From positions 310,001-374,000 of the forward strand of contig CP060501.1 in assembly GCA_024760545.1 (NCBI GenBank): a stretch of 64,000 nucleotides of DNA, given 5' to 3'. Position 1 is the stretch's first letter; each line of letters opens with the position of its first letter. The notes under the pieces are model-generated. The model saw nothing but the letters and a program-made list of their open reading frames with translations. It was not told the DNA's origin and ran no database searches. The DNA is from Nitrospira sp. GTDB lineage: Bacteria > Nitrospirota > Nitrospiria > Nitrospirales > Nitrospiraceae. The position numbers and the translations under genes are program-made. Below are positions 1-15,836 of the stretch, piece after piece.

Positions 1-1
1 C

Positions 2-1192
2 ATCACCATCGGGTACTTCCTGGCCCGCAGTATCGTCAAAGACATCATTCATGTGGCCGATGTCGCCACACAGGCGGCCGCAGGAAATCTTCAGGCTCGA
101 GCAAGGCTTGAAAGCGACGATGAAGTGGGCCATATGGCCAAGGCATTCAACATCATGTTGGATCGGATCACGGCTCTGGTGTCGACGGAAGAAGAGCGGG
201 ATATGATGCAAAAGCGTCTGGTGCAATTCCTGGTACTCGTGTCCGATGTCGGAAAGGGAGACTTGACCAAGCGAGGTGAGGTGACGGCGGACATGTTCGG
301 TAACTTGGCCGACGGCTTCAACCTGATGATCCAGCGGTTCGCGCAATTGATGAAGCAAGTGAGAGAATCGGCCGAGCGTGTGAACCGATCCGCCGGAGCG
401 TTGCGTGACAATGCCGGGCAGATGGCCGGAACCGCCAAGCATCAAGCCGATGAGTCGATGAAGACGCTCGGCGCGGTGGAACAGCTGACCGTTTCGATGC
501 GCCAAGTGGCGGAAACGGCGGAGGCCTCATCCGAATCGGCCCGCCAGGTTTTGAAAGCCACTGAAAACGGAGGCATTGCGGTGCAGGAAACCGTGCAGGA
601 TATGCAGCGCATTCGATCGGCGGTTCAACGCATGTCGAAGCAGGTCAAAGCCCTGGGAGATCGGTCGCTGGAAATTTCGCAAATCGTGTCGACCATCCGA
701 GACATCGCGAATCAGACCAACCTGTTGGCGCTGAATGCCGCCATTGAGGCTGCCGGTGCCGGGGAAGCGGGCGCCCGTTTCGCGGTTGTCGCCGATCAGG
801 TCCGGAAACTCGCCGAAAGTTCGACCCAGGCGACACGCGAAGTCGCTGATCTGGTCAAGGTGATTCAGAGCGAGACGCAACATGCCGTCGTGTCGATGGA
901 ACACGAAACCCAGGCGGTGGAAGCCGGATCGGCTTCCGCTCTCCGAACCGGAGATGTGTTTAAGGAAATTTCGACGATCGCCCAACGATCTGCGGAACTT
1001 GCCCAAAGTATCGCATCGGCCGCAGCCAATCAAACGGCTTCGACAGACCAGGTCGGCCGTTCGATCAAAGACTTCACCGGCGGTGCCGTGGCAACACAAA
1101 AGGCCACCGATTCAGCTCGAGCGACTGTGGAAGACATGGTGAAATTGGCCGAAAGTCTGACGGCATCGGTATCTCAGTTCAAGCTGGTCTGA
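2..1192 (+). CDS. methyl-accepting chemotaxis protein, 5'-truncated by window edge
   Basis: This is a chemoreceptor that would pass a signal to the CheA kinase encoded next. The reading frame is open from the first bases of the window, so the gene starts upstream and the sensor and first membrane segments are missing. The visible part opens with the end of a membrane segment ([12 protein letters not shown]), then a HAMP-type linker ([18 protein letters not shown]), a second HAMP-like stretch ([20 protein letters not shown]), and a long coiled-coil signalling domain. Its tip reads [20 protein letters not shown] followed by [13 protein letters not shown], the usual MCP hairpin. The C-terminus (SVSQFKLV) lacks a CheR-docking pentapeptide. 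The receptor lies 52 nt before cheA in the same direction, so co-expression is likely. Confidence 0.95.
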
Positions 1193-1244
1193 GGGTCTAC
1201 GACACCGGCTGAATCAGGGAACGCCATGAGCTGAAGAGGCACCG

Positions 1245-4200
1245 ATGAGCTCGGAGTTCGACCGGCAAAATCTCATCAGTATTTTTGTTCTGGAAGCGTC
1301 AGATGGACTGGCGGCATTAGTCAAGGCATTACATTCTCTCGCCGACGCCCTTCCCTTACCACAACAACTCACAGAGCAGTTTATCGTGGCCCACCGTATC
1401 CATGGGGCGGCTGCCTTGTATGGGTACAGCGGAGTCGCACAGTTGGCCAAGCGTCTGGAGATGCTGCTGGAACAAGCAACCGGCATCCCGCCTGACCAAT
1501 GGTCACGGGCGGTGGATGTGATGCGGAACCTTACGCAAAGCATTCAAACCATTGTACGGTCCATCGATCAAGGCGGCGGCGAAGATCTGGAGACGGTGAA
1601 ACGATGCCTGGAATCGAGTGAAGGCCTGGTGGAGGAAGCCGACGGCACGGCATCGTCCGTGAGTCAGGAATATGTGCTGCCCGCGCTGGATCCCGAGATG
1701 ATGTCGTACTTTATTCCCGAAGCGGAAGGGTATCTCGAGACGATCGACGAGCTGATACGGGTTCTGCGAACCGAACCGGAGAATGAAGACGCGATTTACC
1801 GACTCTTTCGCGCCGTCCATACCCTCAAGGGGTCGGCGTATACCATAAGTTTTCAGGTCATCGGAGATGTGGCCCATCCGATGGAGAACGGCATGATCGC
1901 GATCCGGGAGAAGCGCCTTCAGTTACAAGGCCAGCTTCTCGAAACCATAACACAGGCTGCCGGCACGATCCGCCTGATTCTTCAACGTGACCTCGCGAAT
2001 GTGCCGCGACTTCAACACGAAGTGCCCCGTCTGATCCATGTGCTCATCCAAATGTGCGAACGTGCGGGGACAGCGGTTCCGGCGGAAGCGGTCACACTCG
2101 ACAGAAGTTCCGGTGTCCCCATCGCCGATCAGGACAAGCTGTCAATTGAACTACGGACTTCCACGCAGGATCTTCCCGACGCGTATTTGATCCCCGATTT
2201 GGACCCAGAAATCATCTCGTACTTTGTGCCGGAAGCGCAAGAGTACCTGGAAATGCTGGAAGCCAATCTCTTGCGATTGGACAAAGACCCACAGAACGGG
2301 GAACTGATCAACCAAGTGTTCAGGACCGCTCATACGTTGAAAGGCTCCGCGTACACCGTCGGCTTTCAGTCGATCGGGGACCTCACCCATCACGTCGAAG
2401 ACTTCATGGGCTCTGTTCGGGATGAGCGCCTCAAAGTGTTGCCGGGGCATACGGATTTGATGCTTCGCTCGATCGACGTTGTCCGGGTGCTGATGCGGAG
2501 AGACCACAACACCGTGTCTCGGACTCGGCAACGATTCGACGAGGCGCGGTCGGAATTGAAACGACTGGGACAAGATGCCGTCAACGAAACGGCATCCGCA
2601 CGTCCGCCGGAACACGCGCCCGACTTAGCCGGAAGACATCAGGAAGAAGCGGGAGAACATCACGGGCAGGGCAAACCATTCGAGACCAGATCCGCTGAAG
2701 ACCGCGAGGTCATCCGGGTCAGCTACGCTCGGTTGGAACGATTGATGAACCTCGTCGGCGAACTGGTCATTGGGCGCGGCCGCTTGGAGCAACGGTTGCG
2801 TGTGTTGGAGCAACTGTCCCAGCAAGTCCTGATATTCAAGACTCGGTTGGCGGACTCGGTCCAATCGTTTTCCGACAAACACATGTTTACCTACCAGGAA
2901 GCGCCGAGCCATTCGCCCGAAGCTTCCGGCCAAGGGTTTCAAGGACTCGGGGATTTTGGAAGTCTCGAGCTTGACAAGTACGACGATTTCAATATCTTGG
3001 CCCGCCGGATTGGAGAGGTCACCGCCGATATCAGCGAGTCGATGTCGCAGCTGAACGGATCCATCCGGACAGCGCATGACGACATGAGCCAACTCCAGCA
3101 ACTGACGCTGCTGATGAGGGACGAAATCGCGCACGCCCGTATGGTTCCGATCGGCACTCCTTTCACCAGGTTTCGTCGGGCGATTCGAGAGATCGCCCGC
3201 GCCTCAAACAAGGAAGTCACACTGGTCACCTCGGGCGAGCATACGGAGGTCGATACGGGAATCGTGGAACGACTCGTGGAGCCCCTCGTGCATTTGGTCC
3301 GTAACGCCGTCTATCACGGTATCGAGTCTGCCGCCGATCGAATCATGAAGGGTAAGCCCGCAGCAGGAACGGTCTACTTGCACGCCGCGCATCGCGGCAA
3401 CTCCGTGATTATCGAGGTCGAGGACGATGGAGCGGGATTGGACTTGTCCAAGATTCGAGCAAAAGCCTTGAAGATGGGGCTGATCAAGGCTGCTCAATTG
3501 CAGACGATGTCAGACGCAGAAGCCCTTCAGCTGATTTTCCTTCCGGGATTTTCAACGGCCGAGAAAGTAGGCGATCAGGCAGGGCGAGGCGTTGGGCTGG
3601 ATGTTGTCAAGCGGGTCATCGAAGGCATGAAGGGTCACATCGACGTCGAATCAGAGCCCGGCGTCGGTACCAAGTTTACCCTAAGCCTTCCGCTCACGCT
3701 CTTGATCGCGACAGCGTTGCTGGTTCGCGCAGGGACCGAGCGGTACGCGATTCCGTTGCCGAATATTCTGGAAGTGACCTTGCCCACTGCCGATTCCTTG
3801 CAACAGCATGACGATCGTATGCTGTTGAAGCTTGGGGATCAATCAATCGAAGTTCACCCATTGCACCATCTCTTGCGCCGGGAACGGGGCCATACGGATT
3901 GGTTGAAGCCGGTGGTGATCGTTCGAACTCCTATAGGACCTGTAGGACTGGCAGTCGATGAACTATTAGGCCGCCAAGAAATCGTCATTAAGTCGCTCGG
4001 GTCGCTGAAACCGCTGGAGTATTCGTTTTTCGGTGGCGCGACCATCGATCCGGAAGGACGTGTCATTCTTGTGATCGACCCCGCCCGCTTGTTTTCGCGC
4101 GAAGCGATCGAATCCATCGCGTTGGAGACGCTTTCCACGACCGGACTCCCGGCTGACCACGCCCCGACTCAGGAGACGGAGAGGGACGACCGGCCGGAGT

Positions 4201-4580
4201 CGCATGTGTTGTTGATCGATGACTCGTTGAGCATCCGCAAGTTTGTCGGGAGGATGTTGGAGTCGGCAGGATATCGGATCGACACGGCGGTCGACGGCGA
4301 AGATGGCCTCAGAAAAGCGCTGACGAACAGTTACCGGTTGATCATCACCGACCTCGAAATGCCGAAACTCAACGGATTCGAAGTCGTTCAGGCTCTGCGG
4401 AGCCGTCCCGAAACGCGGCAGACGCCGGTTGTGGTCATGACGACCAGGGCAGGCGACAAACATCACCAGATGGCGATCAACATTGGAGCCAATTCCTACA
4501 TCGCCAAACCGGTGGAAGAGCGGATGTTGCTCCAGGAAGTTGAGCGGTGGGTCGGCCGCGCTCCGGCCCTCCGCAAGTAA
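1245..4580 (+). CDS. cheA: hybrid CheA histidine kinase with three Hpt domains and C-terminal receiver (ChpA/PilL-like)
   Basis: This is the central kinase of the chemosensory operon, 1111 aa. Three Hpt-like modules occur in series: a divergent one (AHRIHGAAALYGYSG, about residue 50), one with VHTLKGSA near residue 191 and one with AHTLKGSA near residue 362. A dimerisation helix pair follows (YARLERLMNLVGELVIGRGR), then a HATPase with N box HLVRNAVYHGIE (about 682-694), G1 box VEDDGAGLD and G2 region GRGVGLDVVKRVI. Next come a CheW-like domain (ALLVRAGTERYAIPLPNILEV) and a receiver domain (about 985-1100) with DD at its start and phospho-acceptor Asp in LIITDLEMPK (about 1036). Multiple Hpt domains plus a receiver are typical of type IV pilus (Chp/Pil) systems; the output here is not visible. 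ATG at 1245 follows GAAGAGG. Confidence 0.93.
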   Translation: MSSEFDRQNLISIFVLEASDGLAALVKALHSLADALPLPQQLTEQFIVAHRIHGAAALYGYSGVAQLAKRLEMLLEQATGIPPDQWSRAVDVMRNLTQSIQTIVRSIDQGGGEDLETVKRCLESSEGLVEEADGTASSVSQEYVLPALDPEMMSYFIPEAEGYLETIDELIRVLRTEPENEDAIYRLFRAVHTLKGSAYTISFQVIGDVAHPMENGMIAIREKRLQLQGQLLETITQAAGTIRLILQRDLANVPRLQHEVPRLIHVLIQMCERAGTAVPAEAVTLDRSSGVPIADQDKLSIELRTSTQDLPDAYLIPDLDPEIISYFVPEAQEYLEMLEANLLRLDKDPQNGELINQVFRTAHTLKGSAYTVGFQSIGDLTHHVEDFMGSVRDERLKVLPGHTDLMLRSIDVVRVLMRRDHNTVSRTRQRFDEARSELKRLGQDAVNETASARPPEHAPDLAGRHQEEAGEHHGQGKPFETRSAEDREVIRVSYARLERLMNLVGELVIGRGRLEQRLRVLEQLSQQVLIFKTRLADSVQSFSDKHMFTYQEAPSHSPEASGQGFQGLGDFGSLELDKYDDFNILARRIGEVTADISESMSQLNGSIRTAHDDMSQLQQLTLLMRDEIAHARMVPIGTPFTRFRRAIREIARASNKEVTLVTSGEHTEVDTGIVERLVEPLVHLVRNAVYHGIESAADRIMKGKPAAGTVYLHAAHRGNSVIIEVEDDGAGLDLSKIRAKALKMGLIKAAQLQTMSDAEALQLIFLPGFSTAEKVGDQAGRGVGLDVVKRVIEGMKGHIDVESEPGVGTKFTLSLPLTLLIATALLVRAGTERYAIPLPNILEVTLPTADSLQQHDDRMLLKLGDQSIEVHPLHHLLRRERGHTDWLKPVVIVRTPIGPVGLAVDELLGRQEIVIKSLGSLKPLEYSFFGGATIDPEGRVILVIDPARLFSREAIESIALETLSTTGLPADHAPTQETERDDRPESHVLLIDDSLSIRKFVGRMLESAGYRIDTAVDGEDGLRKALTNSYRLIITDLEMPKLNGFEVVQALRSRPETRQTPVVVMTTRAGDKHHQMAINIGANSYIAKPVEERMLLQEVERWVGRAPALRK

Positions 4581-4650
4581 CCCTGCGCAAATATTCGTAT
4601 TGATTGACGAAATGGGGCTTGTTGCAGAAAATGGGCAAGAAGGCGCCGGC

Positions 4651-5103
4651 ATGAGTCTCCGCGAACAGGCCGCCGAAACTCCATCGCTCGCGCCTCCGTC
4701 CCGCTTGCTCATCGTGACCATGGGAGGACGATTCTTTGCGTTGGACGCGGAGTCTGTGCGAAAGCTGTTGACCGAGGATGAGACAGGAAACAGTGGAGTC
4801 CCGCAGGTCGAGGGAGTGGCGTATAGGTCGATTGATCTCGCGGATCAACTGGCATTGTCGCGTGATGGCGCCGGTGTGAACACCCGTGTCGTGCTTCTTT
4901 CCGAAAACGGATCACGGGGAAGCATTCGAGTCGCCTGCGTGCATGGACTTATGAACGTGCAACCATCACAGGTCTTGCCGCTTCCCTCACAATTCTGTGG
5001 ATCGGAGCGACGCTGGTATCGAGGCATGATCTTGTTCGAGCACAGCGTAGCACTCATGCTCGATACGCGCTGGATTCTTGAAAACAAAGGGCTGGAGGCT
5101 TAG
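4651..5103 (+). CDS. CheW-like coupling protein
   Basis: A protein of about 150 aa with the general pattern of a CheW domain: LLIVTMGGRFFALDAESVRK at the start (a hydrophobic strand then the F-A-L/I-x-x-x-x-V signature) and YRGMILFEHSVALMLDTRWI at the end, where CheW proteins read G...G.......LD...L. CheW couples receptors to CheA. The frame is open back to 4483, inside cheA, but an AAGAAGG site 7 nt before the ATG at 4651 favours this start; 4612 is an alternative. It lies between the kinase gene and a second CheW-like gene in the same direction. It is divergent from standard CheW, so a regulatory coupling role is inferred from fold and place. Confidence 0.7.
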   Translation: MSLREQAAETPSLAPPSRLLIVTMGGRFFALDAESVRKLLTEDETGNSGVPQVEGVAYRSIDLADQLALSRDGAGVNTRVVLLSENGSRGSIRVACVHGLMNVQPSQVLPLPSQFCGSERRWYRGMILFEHSVALMLDTRWILENKGLEA

Positions 5104-5177
5104 ACGGATTTATCCGATAAGAGAACGACTACTCGATCACCGGCGGTGCCGGACATTTCGGTGGGTGATAACCGGTC

Positions 5178-5624
5178 ATGCTGAGAACCAGCGGGAAACA
5201 TCAACGACAAGAGGCCTCTCGTTCGTTGAATCTGTTGGTGTTCCTGATAGGTGGCCGAAGGTTGGCGATGAAGACCCAAGAAGTAGCCGGTATCTCACCA
5301 TGGGAGACGAGCATTCCGGTTGCCAGCAGGACTCCATTCGTTACGGCGGTGGTTCGTCGGCATCAGGTAGTATTGCCGGTCTTCGATCTCGCCAAGCTGC
5401 TTCGGGTCTCAGTGCAGGGAAGCAGTCCCTTGTGCTTGACGGCAAAACATCCTCAAGGAGACATGGCGATCTGCATCGATGAGGAAATACCGGTTCTCCA
5501 GACGTTGGACGCTGCAGCGATTCAGGCCTATCGAGGCAAGGACGTGCCGGCCGAATGGAGTTATGCCAGCGGCCTCGACGAGATACCGATCCTCTCTGTA
5601 CACCGACTTGGGGCGGTTGCGTGA
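5178..5624 (+). CDS. CheW-like protein, second copy
   Basis: A protein of 148 aa that also looks like a single CheW domain. LNLLVFLIGGRRLAMKTQEV near residue 18 matches the first strands, VVRRHQVVLPVFDLAKLL matches the conserved G.v.pv.dL..L core, and DMAICIDEEIPV corresponds to the usual V-D-x-V-x-x-V segment. It sits in the chemosensory operon 74 nt after the first CheW-like gene and 39 nt before the receiver/coiled-coil gene. The two CheW-like proteins are not close in sequence, so they may link different receptors or act as alternative scaffolds (inference). No strong ribosome-binding site precedes the ATG at 5178. Confidence 0.7.
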   Translation: MLRTSGKHQRQEASRSLNLLVFLIGGRRLAMKTQEVAGISPWETSIPVASRTPFVTAVVRRHQVVLPVFDLAKLLRVSVQGSSPLCLTAKHPQGDMAICIDEEIPVLQTLDAAAIQAYRGKDVPAEWSYASGLDEIPILSVHRLGAVA

Positions 5625-5663
5625 TGATCGGAACGGACACAGGGAAGGACAAAAGGTGCGGTC

Positions 5664-6953
5664 ATGCCGAAGATCTTGATAGCGGACGATAGCATCGCGG
5701 TTCGGAAAGTCGCCGAACGACTGTTGACCGAGGCAGGCCTCACCGTGACCTTGGCGGCCAATGGTGAAGAAGCACTGGCCTATTTGGCTAAGGAACGGCC
5801 GGATGCAATCGTATCCGACGTCATCATGCCCGACAAAAGCGGATATGAGGTCTGCGCATTCGTTCGCGGAAACTCCAACCTGGCGGGGATTCCCGTGCTC
5901 TTGATTTCGGGTATCGTCAATGACGAAGTGACAAAACAAGCTGACGCCTGCCGGGCCGACGGTGTTCTCAAGAAGCCGTTTCAAGGGACTTCGCTGAAGG
6001 ACCGCGTGCTGGAGCTGCTTTCAAAACGACAGGAATCGCCGCCGGCTGCCGTATCCCGACCTATTCCTACTCAAACGACAGCCACAGCAGAGAAGGTTCC
6101 ACCTACACCCGACCAACAGCAGGAGCACGCGCGCCAAGATTCGATTCAAGTCAAGGAGATGGAAGGCCAATTACTGGCAGAACGCGCTCGATCAGAAGAC
6201 CTCGCCAAACGCTTGGCCGACGCCGTTGAGCACATGACCCGTGCGAAGGCCGCCGAAGCGCAGTTGGCCGTGGAACAACAGCGTGTCAGCGAACTCGAAG
6301 CGAATCTGATGAAGCTTGAACAACAGGCGTCGAGGGTCTCCGAACTCGAAACGGCGCTGACGGCGGAGCAAGACGCGGTCGGCGCACTCAAACAGGAAGT
6401 TGTGAACTGGCAGAAGACCTCCGGTCGGATCGCGGAGCTGGAATCTGCGCTGCATGCGGAACGGGAAGCTGCAGAGCAGCTCGTACAACAATTGGGAGAG
6501 TTGGAGAAGGCGTCGAGTAGGTTGAAAGAGGTGGAGGCAAGCCTCGCACATGAAGAGCAGCAGGTAGCCGAGCTCCAACAGAAAATCAAGGATCTCGAGA
6601 CTGAGCTCTCTGTGGAACGGGAGAAGGCGGCTCAGACAGCGGAACGACTGCAGGAGGTTGAATCCATCGCGACAAAAGTCCGAGAGATGGAAGAGCTTCT
6701 GACGGTGGAACGGGAGAAGGCGGCCCAGACAGCGGAACGATTGCAGGAGGTCGAGCCAATCGCGACAAAAGTCCGGGAGATGGAAGAGCTTCTCACAGTG
6801 GAACGGGATCGCAATGGCGTGCTTGTACGCCGAGTCACGGAGACGGAACAAGCCGCCGAGAATGCCACGAAGAGATTTGAAGACATGGCGCGCAAACTGG
6901 GTGAAATTGCGGGACTGGCCTCTCAACTCGGGAGTGGGAGGGGACAATCCTGA
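5664..6953 (+). CDS. response regulator receiver with long coiled-coil tail
   Basis: A 429 aa protein. Residues 1-120 form a receiver domain: DD at 8-9, phospho-acceptor D52 in AIVSDVIMP, and the conserved Lys in VLKKPFQG. After a Pro/Thr-rich linker, residues about 155-425 are a Glu/Gln/Ala/Leu-rich coiled coil with no recognisable output domain. Part of the coil is an internal tandem duplication (31 aa period, copies starting with VEREKAAQTAERLQEVE). Receiver plus coiled coil resembles motility regulators such as FrzS in general layout only; homology was not tested. It lies in the chemosensory operon downstream of the hybrid CheA, its likely phosphodonor. Confidence 0.88.
   Translation: MPKILIADDSIAVRKVAERLLTEAGLTVTLAANGEEALAYLAKERPDAIVSDVIMPDKSGYEVCAFVRGNSNLAGIPVLLISGIVNDEVTKQADACRADGVLKKPFQGTSLKDRVLELLSKRQESPPAAVSRPIPTQTTATAEKVPPTPDQQQEHARQDSIQVKEMEGQLLAERARSEDLAKRLADAVEHMTRAKAAEAQLAVEQQRVSELEANLMKLEQQASRVSELETALTAEQDAVGALKQEVVNWQKTSGRIAELESALHAEREAAEQLVQQLGELEKASSRLKEVEASLAHEEQQVAELQQKIKDLETELSVEREKAAQTAERLQEVESIATKVREMEELLTVEREKAAQTAERLQEVEPIATKVREMEELLTVERDRNGVLVRRVTETEQAAENATKRFEDMARKLGEIAGLASQLGSGRGQS
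6612..6797 (+). repeat. 93-bp in-frame tandem repeat inside the coiled-coil gene
   Basis: Two nearly identical 93-nt units start at 6612 and 6705, and a third begins at 6798 but soon diverges. Each unit encodes 31 residues beginning VEREKAAQTAERLQEVE. The unit length keeps the reading frame but is not a multiple of seven, so each duplication shifts the heptad register. Confidence 0.9.
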
Positions 6954-9919: not shown

Positions 9920-10029
9920 CTACCCGGCCTTTCGCTTCAGCGGAGAGCTCCATACATAGCGACAATCGGTTCTGCCCCACAGTTATCCACAACGCAGATG
10001 TCGATTATACAGGGCCATCGTTCTTTACT

Positions 10030-10057
10030 TTGCTGGAGAGAGCCGGATCGTTATAAT
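10030..10057 (+). promoter_or_regulatory. candidate sigma-70 promoter
   Basis: TATAAT at 10052-10057 is a perfect -10 hexamer. TTGCTG at 10030-10035 is a weak -35 match at 16 bp spacing. Initiation would fall near 10064 and give a leader of about 40 nt to the GTG at 10103, which supports that start. Confidence 0.45.
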
Positions 10058-10102
10058 GCGTGGCTGGCTACCGGCGCTTTGACAGAACTGGAAGGGAATA
10101 CT

Positions 10103-10627
10103 GTGCCGAAACTCGTCACCGTTGATCATCCGCAGCAAACCATGCAACAGGCTCAGGAATACGTGAAGACGTACATTCTGATGCCGTCCGGCCTTCTGGG
10201 GCTCATCTGTTTGATCGGGAGCGTCGGGGGGTTAGGGTACCAACTGCTCGCCACCGACAGCTATACCTGGGATACCTTTTATCAAAGCTCGGGCCTGTTT
10301 CTGTCGGGTACCGGGCTGGGCGCCGCGCAAACCCTGTATCAGCGGTACCTCTTGAAGGAATTTCCCAACGTGTTGGCCGCGCGGATGAGACAGGGGTTGA
10401 ACAGACAGAAAGGGAAGGTCAAAAAAGGTTCCGAGCCTCCGGACATCGATCATCCGGGGCGGCAGTTGGTTCCGTTTGTGTATGTGCTGGGCACCGTTCT
10501 TCTGGTGGGAAGCGCCATCGCCGCATTTTCCTATGGGCGTGTGCAGATGATTCCCGCGCTCTTGATGCCATGGGCGGGGTTTTATTGGGCAAGACTGTTC
10601 TTGTGGCGGCGAGTGATCAAAATGTAA
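10103..10627 (+). CDS. small integral membrane protein, function unknown
   Basis: A protein of about 174 aa that I do not recognise. The GTG at 10103 has GAAGGG 6 nt upstream and a promoter-like sequence about 45 nt upstream; the longer frame from 9998 has neither. Four hydrophobic stretches are visible: around MPSGLLGLICLIGSVGGLGY, SSGLFLSGTGLGAAQTLY, LVPFVYVLGTVLLVGSAIAA and MIPALLMPWAGFYWARLFLW. A basic loop (RQGLNRQKGKVKKG) joins the second and third. It ends 10 nt before the 3' end of the convergent lpxD. Confidence 0.75.
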   Translation: MPKLVTVDHPQQTMQQAQEYVKTYILMPSGLLGLICLIGSVGGLGYQLLATDSYTWDTFYQSSGLFLSGTGLGAAQTLYQRYLLKEFPNVLAARMRQGLNRQKGKVKKGSEPPDIDHPGRQLVPFVYVLGTVLLVGSAIAAFSYGRVQMIPALLMPWAGFYWARLFLWRRVIKM

Positions 10628-10637
10628 AAGTGAGCGG

Positions 10638-11738
10638 TCAGCGCTTCTTTGAACGAGGGGTCTTTGATCCAGAAGTCCGCTGTGAAGATCGTTTGACCTG
10701 GGTTTCAAGTTCCCCCACACGCTGTTCCAAATCCCGCACGAGTTGTTTCAACTCCGGCAGCTGAAAGATGACCCCCTGAACCTTGAGGGCTTTTTCACGC
10801 GGCATCGCTGGAATGCCTCCGACGATCTGGTTCGACTCGATACTGCGATTGACCCCGGCTTTGGCCGCGATCATCACTTGATCCCCGATGGTCAGATGAT
10901 CGGAAAGCCCGGCCTGTCCACCGATCATGACATGGCGGCCGATCGTCGTGCTGCCGGCGATACCGACTTGGGCAACGAGGATGCAGTGCTCTCCCACGGT
11001 GACATTGTGGGCAATCTGGACGAGGTTGTCGACTTTGGTGCCCTGCTTCACGAGGGTTCGTCCAAACGTGGCGCGGTCGATCGTCACGTTGGCTCCGAGT
11101 TCGACATCGTCTTCGATGACGACGCCACCGAGTTGAGGAATCTTGTGATGGCGGCCCTGATGCTGGACATATCCGAATCCGTCGGCTCCGATCACGGTTC
11201 CGCTGTGCACAATCACTCGTGCGCCAAGAGAACAGCCTTCGCGAACGACGACATTGGGATAGAGGATGCAATCATCGCCGACTGTCGAGTCTGATCCGAC
11301 GAACACGCCGGGATAGAGAGTCACCCGTTGGCCGATCGTGACACGGTCGCCGATGGTGACATACGGCCAGATAGACGGGTCGGCGCCGATCCTCACATCG
11401 GAGCCTTGCGTCACCTGTTCGCTGATGCCGCGGGGTGCCGGCGTGCGGACAAAGAACGTCTGCGCCACCCGGGCAAAGGCCAGCATCGGGTTGTCGACGA
11501 CGACCTGAGGGACGGCAAGATCGGCCTGATGCCGATGAACCAGCAGAGCTGCCACTTGCAGGTTGGTCGCGTCCTTCGCCATTTTGTCGTTGGTCATGAA
11601 CGACAAGGCATGTGGGTTGGGCTGACTCAGGCTCGTCAAGCCGAAGATCTGCGTTTGGCCGTCGCCATGGATCGAGCCTCCGACAACCTCATGGATCTGA
11701 GCGAGTGTAACCGAAGTCGGTGATTGAGGTGCGCTCAT
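10638..11738 (-). CDS. lpxD: UDP-3-O-acylglucosamine N-acyltransferase
   Basis: LpxD adds the second (N-linked) hydroxyacyl chain to UDP-3-O-acylglucosamine in lipid A synthesis, using acyl-ACP, in the cytoplasm. The 366 aa protein has the LpxD N-terminal domain (about 1-100, with GLTSLSQPNPHALSFM), then a left-handed beta-helix of hexapeptide repeats (about 105-320). The His-rich catalytic region DGFGYVQHQGRHHKIPQLG is present, as are DNLVQIAHNVTVG and GGQAGLSDHLTIGD. A C-terminal helix (LKQLVRDLEQRVGELE) ends in a basic tail. The start codon overlaps the stop of the upstream acyl carrier protein gene (ATGA), implying translational coupling and suggesting that this ACP is its donor. Confidence 0.95.
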   Translation of the reverse strand: MSAPQSPTSVTLAQIHEVVGGSIHGDGQTQIFGLTSLSQPNPHALSFMTNDKMAKDATNLQVAALLVHRHQADLAVPQVVVDNPMLAFARVAQTFFVRTPAPRGISEQVTQGSDVRIGADPSIWPYVTIGDRVTIGQRVTLYPGVFVGSDSTVGDDCILYPNVVVREGCSLGARVIVHSGTVIGADGFGYVQHQGRHHKIPQLGGVVIEDDVELGANVTIDRATFGRTLVKQGTKVDNLVQIAHNVTVGEHCILVAQVGIAGSTTIGRHVMIGGQAGLSDHLTIGDQVMIAAKAGVNRSIESNQIVGGIPAMPREKALKVQGVIFQLPELKQLVRDLEQRVGELETQVKRSSQRTSGSKTPRSKKR

Positions 11739-12205
11739 CGGGCCGCAACCTTTTTCTTTGTTCTCGCTGCGACGGCGGATGCCTTCTTCGGCTTCTTGGC
11801 GGCGGGTTTGGCGGCGGCGGGTTTGGCGGCGGATTTTGCCGTCGCCGTCTTCGCGGAGGCTGATTTGGCCGAGGTCGGCCTGCGTGAAGCGGATTTCGAT
11901 TTGGCCGAGGCCGGCGCCGGTTTTGCCGACTCAGGGGCGGCGTCGGATTTCGGTTCAGCCAGCCGTCGTTGGACGTAGGCGGCCACTGAGCCGACCGTAC
12001 TCAACCCCGGGAGGTCCTGATCCGGAATTTGAAGTTTGAACCGCTCTTCGATCTCAAAGAGCAGTTCGATGATGGCGACCGAGTCGAGTCCGAGGTCGTC
12101 CCGGAGATGATGAGATTCGGTAATCGTCGCGGGGTCTCGCTTGAGATAGCTGGCCAAAGCTTGAACGATTTTCTCGGTCACTGCGCGGTCGGTCGGTTCA
12201 GTCAT
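11735..12205 (-). CDS. acyl carrier protein with long Ala/Lys/Pro-rich C-terminal tail
   Basis: Residues 1-82 form a normal acyl carrier protein with the phosphopantetheine site at S42 in DDLGLDSVAII. Residues about 83-156 are a low-complexity tail of Ala, Lys, Ser and Pro (for example AKSAAKPAAAKPAAKKPKK) like the C-terminus of histone H1-type proteins. Typical ACPs are 75-95 aa and strongly acidic, so a basic tail of about 74 aa is unusual. The gene lies between a FabF-like gene and lpxD and overlaps lpxD by 4 nt. It is likely a dedicated carrier for an envelope lipid acyl chain rather than the housekeeping ACP (inference). The tail might bind nucleic acid, membrane or a partner enzyme; nothing here decides this. 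Confidence 0.9.
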   Translation of the reverse strand: MTEPTDRAVTEKIVQALASYLKRDPATITESHHLRDDLGLDSVAIIELLFEIEERFKLQIPDQDLPGLSTVGSVAAYVQRRLAEPKSDAAPESAKPAPASAKSKSASRRPTSAKSASAKTATAKSAAKPAAAKPAAKKPKKASAVAARTKKKVAAR

Positions 12206-12283: not shown

Positions 12284-13540
12284 TTATGCGACAAATTTTT
12301 TGAAGACAACCGTGGCATTGTTGCTGCCGAATCCGAATGCGTTCAAGAGCGCGTAGCGAATCTTTCGCTCTTGGACCGCGCGTCGAATGCCGTCCAATCG
12401 GCATGCGGGGTCCGGCTCTTCGTAGTTGGCTGTGGGATGGATCTGCCCGGTATGGATCGATAACGTCGTCGCCACGGCTCCAAGCGCGCCCGCCGCGCCC
12501 AGCGTGTGGCCGATGAGCGACTTGGTGGCATTCACCGAGAGCTTGTCTGCGCGACTCTTGAACAGACTCCTGATGGCTTTGGTTTCGACGGCATCACCGA
12601 TCGTCGTGGACGTGGCATGGGCGTTGATATAGTCGACCTGATCCGGAGCGATGCCGGCTGATTCCAGACCGATCTTCATCGTCGTGCAGATTTCCTGGCC
12701 GTCTTCCTGGGGAATGACCATGTGATAGGCTTCGCTGGTGGCGGCGTATCCGGCGATCTCCGCGTAGACTCTCGCTTTCCGCTTCTTGGCGTGCGCCCAA
12801 GATTCGACGATCAATGTCGCGGCTCCTTCGCCCATGACGAATCCGTCGCGGCGCCGGTCGAAGGGGCGCGATGCCCGCTCCGGAGCATCGTTGAACTCAC
12901 TGGAGAGGGCGCGCAAGGAGCAAAATCCGGCAAAGACCAATGGAGTGATGCTCGCATCCGCGCCGACGGCGATGACCACATCGGCCTGTCCGGTTCGAAT
13001 ACAGTGAAGGGCCTGACCGAGCGCATGGGCACTGGACGAACAAGCCGTTGAGATGGTGAGATTCGGCCCTTTGGCCCCATGCGCCATGGCCACGATGCCC
13101 GAGGCGGAATTCAGGGTAATGGTCGGTATGAAATTCGGGTGCACGCGGTGCGGTCGTTGGGTCTTGAAGAGCTGCGTGATTTCACGCTCTCCCATCACCA
13201 TACCGCCCATTCCGGCTCCGACGATCACCCCGACACGATGAGGAGCCTCCTTCGCCATGCTGAGGTCGGCATCGGCCATTGCTTCCTTGGCGGAAACCAA
13301 GGCGAATTGAGCGTAACGATCCACACGGCTGGCTTGTGTGGGCGTCAAATACTGTTCCGGTGAAAAGTTATGGACCTGGCCCGCCACCCGAGAACGGTAG
13401 CCGGACATGGGAAACCATCCAAGGGAAGGGATCGCCGTGATTCCTGAGCGGCCCGCAAGGGCCGACTTCCAGAATTCGCTGACTCCGATTCCGAGGGGAG
13501 ACACTACCCCGAGGCCGGTAATCACTACACGCGAGGGCAT
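12284..13540 (-). CDS. fabF: beta-ketoacyl-ACP synthase II (FabF-like)
   Basis: A condensing enzyme of 418 aa that elongates an acyl chain with malonyl-ACP. The whole catalytic set is present: nucleophile C167 in TISTACSSSAHALG, H308 in NAHATST, K340 and H345 in NATKSLIGHTLGAAG, and the glycine-rich end LLNAFGFGSNNATVVF. The N-terminus RVVITGLGVVSPLG is typical of FabF. It lies upstream of the tailed ACP and lpxD on the same strand and downstream of lptG, so it probably makes or extends a chain for lipid A or a related envelope lipid, as AcpXL-linked synthases do in rhizobia (inference). GGAGAGAGAAAACC precedes the start. Confidence 0.92.
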   Translation of the reverse strand: MPSRVVITGLGVVSPLGIGVSEFWKSALAGRSGITAIPSLGWFPMSGYRSRVAGQVHNFSPEQYLTPTQASRVDRYAQFALVSAKEAMADADLSMAKEAPHRVGVIVGAGMGGMVMGEREITQLFKTQRPHRVHPNFIPTITLNSASGIVAMAHGAKGPNLTISTACSSSAHALGQALHCIRTGQADVVIAVGADASITPLVFAGFCSLRALSSEFNDAPERASRPFDRRRDGFVMGEGAATLIVESWAHAKKRKARVYAEIAGYAATSEAYHMVIPQEDGQEICTTMKIGLESAGIAPDQVDYINAHATSTTIGDAVETKAIRSLFKSRADKLSVNATKSLIGHTLGAAGALGAVATTLSIHTGQIHPTANYEEPDPACRLDGIRRAVQERKIRYALLNAFGFGSNNATVVFKKFVA

Positions 13541-13618: not shown

Positions 13619-14710
13619 TCAATGGCGAACTTTCAGCAGCAGATAGAGGCCGAAGCTAAGAAAAAGCGCATTGGCCATCCAGCCGGCGAGTATGGGCGCT
13701 AAGACTCCTCCACGTCCGAGCGCGATGGCCACGGAGTGGGTGGTCCAATAGCAGAATCCGACAATGAACGCCTGGCCGATCCCCACGGCCATGCTGCCTC
13801 CACGGACGCCGCTTCGCCGTAGGCTCAACGCAATTCCGACGAGTACCATGACGACCGTGACGAGCGGGAAGGCCACACGGCCGTAGTAGTCCGTCAGCAG
13901 ACGTGTGAACGAGAATCCCTCGTTCCGAAATCGCCCCAGATAGTTTTGGATCTCTCGAAAGGTCATGGTTTCCGAGTTTCCGAGGAGCGAGCTGGAGAAA
14001 TCATCGGGAATCAGCGGAATGTTGATCGCCTGTTCGGTGAACAGCGTCACGTCCGCGGTATCGTCAGGGTGAAACCGGCGGTGGTTGCCGTTCAGCAGAA
14101 TCCAGCCTTCAGGAGTATAGCGGGCTTCATCCGCTTCGGTGATTCGATCGAGTTGGAAGGGAGGACGGAAATAGAAAATACGAACGCCTCGAAGGGTCTT
14201 GCCCGCGGTATCGATTTCACTGACCTTCATCAAGCCGTTGGCACTGACGCGAGCCCAAGGCTGGGTGGCCGTGACGGTCACGGGAGCCGGCTTCTGCTCG
14301 ATCTGGATCACGCGGACTTCTTCGGCCTTTTCCGAGGCCAGCGGAATCACGGTCGAGCTGAACACAAGCAGCACCAGCGACACACCGCTGGCGAAGAGGA
14401 GAAAGGGCGAGCACATCCACAGCAGGCTGACCCCGCAGCTGCGCATGGCCGTAATTTCATTGCTGCGCGCGAGTAAGCCAAGCGTCAACAGGGTCGCGAC
14501 GAGGATGGCGAACGGAGCGACTTGAAACGAAATCGAGGGAATCTTGAGTGCGAAATAGATCAGGATCGGGACGATTCCGGATTCGTAGCGAAGAAACCGG
14601 CGGACTTTCTCAAAGAAGTCGATGACCAGGTAGATGGTGACCAAGCCGGAGAAGCACATCCCGAAGATTTTCGCGTATTCGCGGAGGATATAGCGGAACA
14701 GAATCGTCAT
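13619..14710 (-). CDS. lptG: LPS export permease LptG
   Basis: LptG is one of the two permease subunits of the LptB2FG transporter that extracts LPS from the inner membrane. The 363 aa protein starts with LFRYILREYAKIFG, has helices 1-3 in the first ~115 residues (including ARSNEITAMRSCGVS, the coupling-helix region for LptB), a periplasmic jellyroll-like domain (about 115-265), and three C-terminal helices (FPLVTVVMVLVGIALSLR onward). The helix-2 region and DFFEKV match LptG rather than LptF. It starts 4 nt after lptF ends. Confidence 0.93.
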   Translation of the reverse strand: MTILFRYILREYAKIFGMCFSGLVTIYLVIDFFEKVRRFLRYESGIVPILIYFALKIPSISFQVAPFAILVATLLTLGLLARSNEITAMRSCGVSLLWMCSPFLLFASGVSLVLLVFSSTVIPLASEKAEEVRVIQIEQKPAPVTVTATQPWARVSANGLMKVSEIDTAGKTLRGVRIFYFRPPFQLDRITEADEARYTPEGWILLNGNHRRFHPDDTADVTLFTEQAINIPLIPDDFSSSLLGNSETMTFREIQNYLGRFRNEGFSFTRLLTDYYGRVAFPLVTVVMVLVGIALSLRRSGVRGGSMAVGIGQAFIVGFCYWTTHSVAIALGRGGVLAPILAGWMANALFLSFGLYLLLKVRH

Positions 14711-14714
14711 GATG

Positions 14715-15836
14715 CTATTGCCTGCTCATCCGGAAAAACATGATGCCGGTGATGACGACAAAAATGATATTCGGCAGCCAGGCACCCGCAAACGGAGGGA
14801 GAATCAAGGCCGTCACCAGAAAATCACAGCCGACATTCAGGATATAGAATGCGATGATGATGCCCACGCCGACGGCAAACCCGCCGATGCGGCCGGACCG
14901 TTTCGAGACGATGCCGACCGGCACCCCGAGCAGGCAGAAGACGAGCGACGCGGTCGGAAACGCCAGGTCTTTATAGTATTCCATCAGGCGCCGAAGGGCG
15001 CCGGCATCCTTGCCGCCGGTTTCCGCCAGTCGCGCCATGATTTGATCGTAGGATGGACGCTCCTCCGTGGCCGAATAACTGCTGAGGTTCAGGTTGATCT
15101 TGATGTCGTAGCTGGCGAAGGCGATCTGCCGGTACTGATCGATCTGGCGCGGTTGGCTGTGAATCACTCCGTTCACCAGCCGAAGCGCGACCTGCTCATG
15201 CTCCGAATCCATGAATACTTGGTACTGCTCCGCCACGATGACTCTCGGCTCGCGGGGAAGTCGTTCGTCCGAGATAAAGATGCCGGCCGCGGGACGGCCC
15301 TGCTCGCCTTCCGGAACATAAATCATCATGTGCGGGATCGGTTCGTTGAACGTGCCTCGTTCCAACGCCAGCACGAGTTGATCTTTCAGCAGATTGAGGG
15401 CCACCTTCTTCAAATTCAGGGAACTCCACGGCTGTCCCCATTGAGACAAGACCAACGTCAGCGTGAACACACACAGGGAGAAGAGCAGGACCGGCTGTGA
15501 GAGACGGAACAGGCTCAACCCGGCCGCGCGCATCGCCACCAATTCTTTATCATAGGACAACCGGCCGAAGGCCGTGACCGACGCGATGAGTCCGGCGATG
15601 GGGAGTGTCAGCACCAGACCGGAGGGGAGCAGCATGGCGATCACTTTGATGACCGCCCAGAAGCCGACTCCTTTGGAGACCAGGAGTTCGACGAGACGCA
15701 ACAACTCCCTGGTCAACATGACAAAACAGAGCGCGCCGAGGCTGAGGCCAAACGGGGAAAGGAGTTCCGTGAAGATGTAGCGGTCGAGGAGCGTTCGTAA
15801 AATCACAGAGTTTCTGGGGAGGAGAAGATTGGGCAC
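14715..15836 (-). CDS. lptF: LPS export permease LptF
   Basis: LptF partners LptG in LPS extraction. The 373 aa protein has the same plan as LptG: RYIFTELLSPFGLSLGALCF at the start, LPIAGLIASVTAFGRLSYDK then ELVAMRAAGLSLFRL for the coupling helix, a periplasmic domain (about 120-280), and terminal helices with LLGVPVGIVSKRSGRIGGFA. It is the first gene of the minus-strand run lptF-lptG-fabF-acp-lpxD, and its promoter should lie in the space shared with the divergent cold-shock gene (15837-16104). Confidence 0.93.
   Translation of the reverse strand: MPNLLLPRNSVILRTLLDRYIFTELLSPFGLSLGALCFVMLTRELLRLVELLVSKGVGFWAVIKVIAMLLPSGLVLTLPIAGLIASVTAFGRLSYDKELVAMRAAGLSLFRLSQPVLLFSLCVFTLTLVLSQWGQPWSSLNLKKVALNLLKDQLVLALERGTFNEPIPHMMIYVPEGEQGRPAAGIFISDERLPREPRVIVAEQYQVFMDSEHEQVALRLVNGVIHSQPRQIDQYRQIAFASYDIKINLNLSSYSATEERPSYDQIMARLAETGGKDAGALRRLMEYYKDLAFPTASLVFCLLGVPVGIVSKRSGRIGGFAVGVGIIIAFYILNVGCDFLVTALILPPFAGAWLPNIIFVVITGIMFFRMSRQ

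Follow-up and report, generated by a model that had tools for sequence, protein, structure and literature searches.

The Nitrospira stretch analysed here (the window, 64,000 nucleotides) encodes an acyl carrier protein (ACP) with a long C-terminal tail, and its composition, structural model and comparison across relatives point to a conserved, disordered and strongly basic extension that is selected for charge and composition rather than for sequence. As judged from gene content and gene order, this ACP and the beta-ketoacyl-ACP synthase (KAS) encoded before it form a dedicated, clade-conserved module in a lipopolysaccharide (LPS) operon. Our tentative reading, to which we give a probability of about 0.4, is that the protein would be a second, lipid-A-dedicated ACP working in a KAS-ACP module, and that its tail would be a non-specific electrostatic tether, in the first place to the anionic inner membrane. 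The textbook ACP is a small, acidic and diffusible carrier. If the reading is true, the Nitrospira protein is tied to one lipid-A step and has a tail that stayed basic throughout a bacterial family; it would then count among the rare localised type II ACPs and offer an entry point to the study of lipid A in this genus.

The ACP gene (positions 11735-12205, minus strand) has a Shine-Dalgarno-like AAGGAG, read directly, just 5' of its ATG, and its translated open reading frame is 156 aa long with the phosphopantetheine site at Ser42, within a DLGLDS motif. The original prediction was of a complete ACP domain with S42 that continues into an Ala/Lys/Ser/Pro tail of ~74 residues, and this description holds: a Pfam profile search placed the protein in the PP-binding family PF00550 (residues 11-78, E 2.7e-14, 53.6 bits against a cut-off of 20.8), and the tail takes up residues ~84-156. 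The AlphaFold model, made with 14 homologues, is confident for the core, with helices at residues 7-21, 42-56 and 71-82, and past residue ~83 it has no structure, with a pLDDT of about 50. This disordered part (residues ~83-156) is encoded by positions 11738-11959 on the minus strand, in DNA with imperfect tandem repeats of 9, 12 and 15 nt. Lys, Ala, Ser, Pro and Thr predominate in the last ~73 residues (rich in K/R/A/P/S), and by composition and model confidence the tail is a Lys/Ala/Pro-rich, disordered, basic C-terminal region of the histone H1-like or AlgP type; the net charge is -6 for residues 1-84 and +18 for residues 85-156. Because all three NCBIfam models failed, the protein is not filed, on its profile scores, as a member of the housekeeping AcpP, AcpM or AcpXL families: it reached 52.7 bits with the housekeeping AcpP equivalog TIGR00517 (cut-off 70.45), 51 bits with the AcpM model NF040636 (cut-off 146) and 28 bits with NF005079 (cut-off 83), which we take to be the AcpXL model.

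On the minus strand, the predicted operon runs from an LptF/LptG-family LPS export permease (14715-15836; PF03739, E 3.7e-74) through a second permease of this family (13619-14710; PF03739, E 5.9e-79), a FabF-type KAS (12284-13540) and the ACP to LpxD, the UDP-3-O-acylglucosamine N-acyltransferase (10638-11738). A promoter-like TTTACA-17-TATAGT, which is a consensus match only, lies at 15865-15837, just 5' of the first permease gene. The KAS, a second copy, scored 512.8 bits with TIGR03150 fabF (cut-off 493.75) and carries the Cys motif TACSSS and the two His motifs NAHATST and SLIGHT, and LpxD passed the equivalog model TIGR01853 with 368 bits (cut-off 242.5). An overlap of the ACP gene with lpxD and a ketosynthase gene before it had also been predicted, and both were confirmed, as the ACP stop and the lpxD start share 4 nt (ATGA, 11735-11738) and the FabF-type KAS gene ends 78 nt upstream of the ACP start. 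A separate housekeeping ACP, followed by its own fabF, is encoded elsewhere in the genome, and the KAS adjoining it is 44.6% identical to the module KAS. This AcpP has the same PP-binding fold and Ser site as the tailed ACP, but differs from it in its length of 77 aa, its lack of a tail, its net charge of -16 and its locus.

The ACP was present in all 35 genomes assigned to the same genus, the window genome included. Some of these copies are incomplete or broken inside the tail, namely one that runs into N (L027), two that are split between contigs (L029 and L036), one that is frameshifted (L021) and one that lies 26.7 kb from lpxD (L022). Every other copy has a basic tail, with KAS on one side and lpxD on the other. 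In a 296-genome sample of the phylum, strong ACP matches (E < 1e-27) were confined, within the sample, to family f1 and a part of family f3, and a family f2 genome (G053) also has the ACP; the protein occurs in almost all of the Nitrospiraceae sampled, in many genera of f1 and in some members of a second family. Further loci gave the same picture, with a tailed ACP, KAS upstream and lpxD downstream in 39 of 40; the fortieth (L166, G282) is a tail-less 85-aa ACP paralogue that lies between unrelated genes, away from KAS and lpxD. The named records of the same family are Nitrospira, Nitrospiraceae or Nitrospirota assemblies, except two labelled uncultured Nitrosospira (L169, L184), which have the same gene set at the locus. 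One proteobacterial match (L201) that seemed to be tailed was rejected, being an ordinary 81-aa ACP whose open reading frame stops before the basic stretch.

The KAS-ACP-lpxD order was found in all loci on sufficiently long contigs except that of one genome (G019, described below), and lptF-lptG precede these three genes in the window and in 7 of the 8 longer loci with full flanks. A family f3 genome (L040, G055) has the trio, and the stretch of about 3 kb upstream of it showed no LptF/LptG homologue. Genomes of family f3 genus g3 mostly have lptF-lptG-lpxD and lack KAS as well as ACP. A 1.7-Mb genome of family f1 (G213) has kept lptF, lptG and an intact lpxD; its KAS is gone, and in the lptG-lpxD gap there is a remnant (L282, G213:C5:48000-54000, 3264-3629) in which the first KAS residues are fused to a decayed, tail-less ACP. 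In this joint presence and absence, KAS and ACP behave like a single unit joined to the lipid-A locus, and LpxD can persist alone. Two other family f1 genomes (G162 and G209, genus g14), rated 98-99% complete, gave neither an ACP nor a convincing lpxD match, and they possibly have no standard lipid A. The comparative set allows simple contrasts, such as tail versus no tail and module present versus module lost.

All 99 distinct ACP sequences have a basic tail, with a length of 18-102 residues (median 35) and a net charge of +5 to +24. Past the first 15 tail residues, these sequences contain 970 Lys/Arg and 12 Asp/Glu among 2838 residues, and their pooled last ten residues contain 453 Lys/Arg and 2 Asp/Glu. 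Since Lys and Glu codons are one transition apart, the scarcity of acidic residues suggests that charge is under selection. The pairwise dN/dS (NG86, three clades) was 0.27-0.29 in the tail versus 0.03-0.05 in the core, by which measure the tail is constrained, but loosely. It had been proposed that a functional tail would be conserved next to lpxD across a clade without its sequence being conserved, and this is the pattern observed, the tail being kept in composition and charge; a normal-length ACP in close relatives, which had been named as evidence to the contrary, was not found at the locus in any of the relatives examined. Such tails are not a habit of the genome as a whole either, a possibility that was rejected on the basis of a 464-kb background sample of the genome with 338 called genes, in which the ACP ranks first and LpxD seventh for how basic the last 25 residues are (net +10 in the ACP; 99th percentile +7), and of a search of the genome for other KA-rich tails, which matched only the ACP gene, although low-complexity matches may escape such a search.

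LpxD itself ends in a basic tail, as had been predicted. This tail (TQVKRSSQRTSGSKTPRSKKR, net charge +8; residues 346-366; 10641-10703, minus strand) follows the part of the protein that aligns with solved LpxD structures. The median net charge of the LpxD tail after the C-terminal helix was +8 and +7 in family f1, +5.5 with and +3 without the ACP in family f3, +1 in family f4, and +11 in family f2 without an adjacent ACP, where it is up to 43 residues long. LpxD is almost tail-less in some relatives, of family f4 and of family f3 genus g9, and the tail is therefore not needed for LpxD action. Because basic tails are found on either the ACP or LpxD, or on the two proteins at once, they appear to be linked to the LpxD step; the charges of the ACP tail and of LpxD were correlated overall (rho 0.45), with no correlation outside genus g1. 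Researchers have found that E. coli LpxD binds ACP mainly via its C-terminal domain, through electrostatic contacts (PMC6286764). The LpxD chain-length position (E. coli M290, C. trachomatis G298) was considered as a sign of long-chain specificity and set aside as uninformative, since Gly is found there in nearly all relatives, both with and without the module. A separate observation concerns the family f2 loci L074-L077, L080 and L088, which have no KAS-ACP beside lpxD and whose LpxD tails are 14-43 residues long, Lys/Ala/Pro-rich and of net charge +9 to +16.

Among known systems, the AcpXL cluster of rhizobia and Agrobacterium is arranged as acpXL-fabZXL-fabF2XL-fabF1XL-adh-lpxXL (PMC11901934). 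The Nitrospira locus resembles it in that a second ACP, putatively dedicated to lipid A, is encoded with its own FabF-type ketosynthase beside a lipid-A acyltransferase gene, all in the same putative operon, as the KAS-ACP-LpxD order across the clade indicates. However, the Nitrospira cluster has one KAS, no FabZ and no dehydrogenase, and AcpXL serves LpxXL and very long chain acids, whereas the Nitrospira acyltransferase is LpxD. By analogy, the best reading is that the Nitrospira ACP is AcpXL-like in role, not in family. The closest solved ACP by sequence is AcpM, the mycobacterial meromycolate ACP (PDB 1klp, E 1.3e-12), which is also dedicated, longer than usual (115 aa) and C-terminally extended; the likeness is one of length and of having an extension, and AcpM belongs to another pathway and another envelope.

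We propose that KAS and ACP would act as a module for elongating and carrying an acyl chain, which the ACP would deliver to LpxD for transfer to glucosamine and which is most probably an (R)-3-hydroxyacyl chain; gene order and the joint gain and loss of KAS and ACP both suggest this, and gene order is what points to LpxD rather than another acyltransferase as the enzyme that is probably served. The basic tail would tether the carrier electrostatically and non-specifically to a cytoplasmic polyanion, the foremost candidate being the inner membrane, where the LptF/LptG machine sits and whose inner face is anionic. The ACP and LpxD, with its own short basic tail, would thereby be brought together, and the general AcpP pool would not mix with the acyl chains meant for lipid A. 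Past its first 15 residues the tail has very few large hydrophobic residues in the 99 sequences, as a purely electrostatic tether would have. On the other hand, LpxA, which like LpxD is a soluble acyltransferase that depends on ACP in this pathway and which is encoded in another cluster after an open reading frame that is, from its sequence, presumably FabZ, has no basic tail and an acidic end, which argues against a tether. Any polyanion would fit as the target of the tail, and the membrane, which we favour, would be the most likely one. We consider it rather doubtful that the case goes further, to a class of ACP whose polybasic disordered tail brings the carrier, together with lipid-A acyl transfer, to the inner membrane on its cytoplasmic side, and by which the bacterium would keep its lipid-A acyl flux separate from general fatty-acid synthesis in space and not only through enzyme specificity. 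Paper searches found no description of a tailed ACP of this kind or of its tail, which is a weak negative, as most subscription journals are outside their coverage.

Other explanations of the tail have to be weighed against the tether. The tail might have no function and be slippage-prone low-complexity DNA tolerated at a C terminus, with which the short tandem repeats in its DNA agree, as does the closest named record, Nitrospira sp. BO4 (L168), whose KAS, LpxD and ACP core are identical and whose tail is 5 residues shorter through deletion of a repeat unit. We consider this very improbable, given the scarcity of Asp/Glu, the dN/dS of about 0.28 and the retention of the tail across many f1 genera and in family f3; a repeat-expansion accident in particular is ruled out by the basic tail in 99 of 99 sequences, although slippage does alter its length. 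A binding site for nucleic acid or polyphosphate, which would anchor the carrier to the nucleoid, ribosomes or polyphosphate granules, is suggested by analogy with the histone H1-like tails of AlgP and PhaF (KPAA tails, Pseudomonas) and Hc2 (Chlamydia), which are disordered and Lys/Ala/Pro-rich like that of the ACP. AlgP tail peptides bind DNA, and AlgP is located on polyphosphate granules (PMC9239181); Hc2 is reported to vary in size through its repeat number (PMC2848022). But these proteins are DNA- or granule-associated, whereas the ACP tail sits on an enzyme-cofactor carrier and shares no homology with them beyond composition, tails of just 18-24 residues with a net charge of +5 to +6 persist in several species, and the gene context is purely LPS, with nothing at the locus indicating nucleic acid, so that we regard this explanation as unlikely.

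We give slightly less credit to two explanations in which the tail has a protein partner. The tail could fold loosely on the acidic core of its own chain and be displaced only by cognate partners, shielding the carrier from housekeeping enzymes; opposite charges are indeed present on one chain, and the module KAS has a net charge of +8 versus -4 for the housekeeping FabF, as expected of partners tuned to different carriers. Yet the core falls well short of AcpP in acidity (-6 vs -16), LpxD bears a similar tail without an ACP core, and core-tail charge matching is unsupported, as the tail ranges from +5 to +24 while the core stays between -4 and -10 (95 sequences). It is about equally improbable that the tail docks on an acidic surface of the LpxD body, LptF/LptG or another LPS enzyme. 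The LpxD body (residues 1-345) has a net charge of -5, and the 4-nt gene overlap suggests translational coupling of ACP and LpxD, but low sequence conservation and fast length change speak against a defined interface, and both the KAS and the tail of LpxD are basic. The original prediction named the membrane, LpxD or nucleic acid as possible docking sites of the ACP, and of these we favour the membrane; docking to LpxD, insofar as it would proceed through LpxD's own tail, is disfavoured, and tail-to-tail docking was rejected, because both tails are strongly positive. That prediction did not include the LptF/LptG-KAS-ACP-LpxD setting, the tail-less housekeeping ACP or the joint presence and absence of KAS and ACP.

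Some minor observations were made at this locus and elsewhere in the genomes. In the one genome with a different gene order (G019; L022; L093/L094, G019:C12:185000-216500), the ACP tail is cut, and its 3' end is found together with lpxD at a distance of 26.7 kb, with the orientation unchanged. The ACP-KAS side is joined to a match of window positions 1-6268 that ends inside a response-regulator/coiled-coil gene. Two explanations fit, namely an assembly error or a rearrangement whose two ends both fell in low-complexity coding DNA. In the window, a convergent gene on the plus strand (9998-10627) comes after lpxD; its product has no Pfam match, and a similar neighbour also follows lpxD in G213 (L282). 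The window genome further contains a 3085-aa open frame with three PP-binding domains (L096, G000:C1:2676000-2690000; L042) and, nearby, a third small ACP of 85 aa, in what looks like a polyketide or peptide synthase region.
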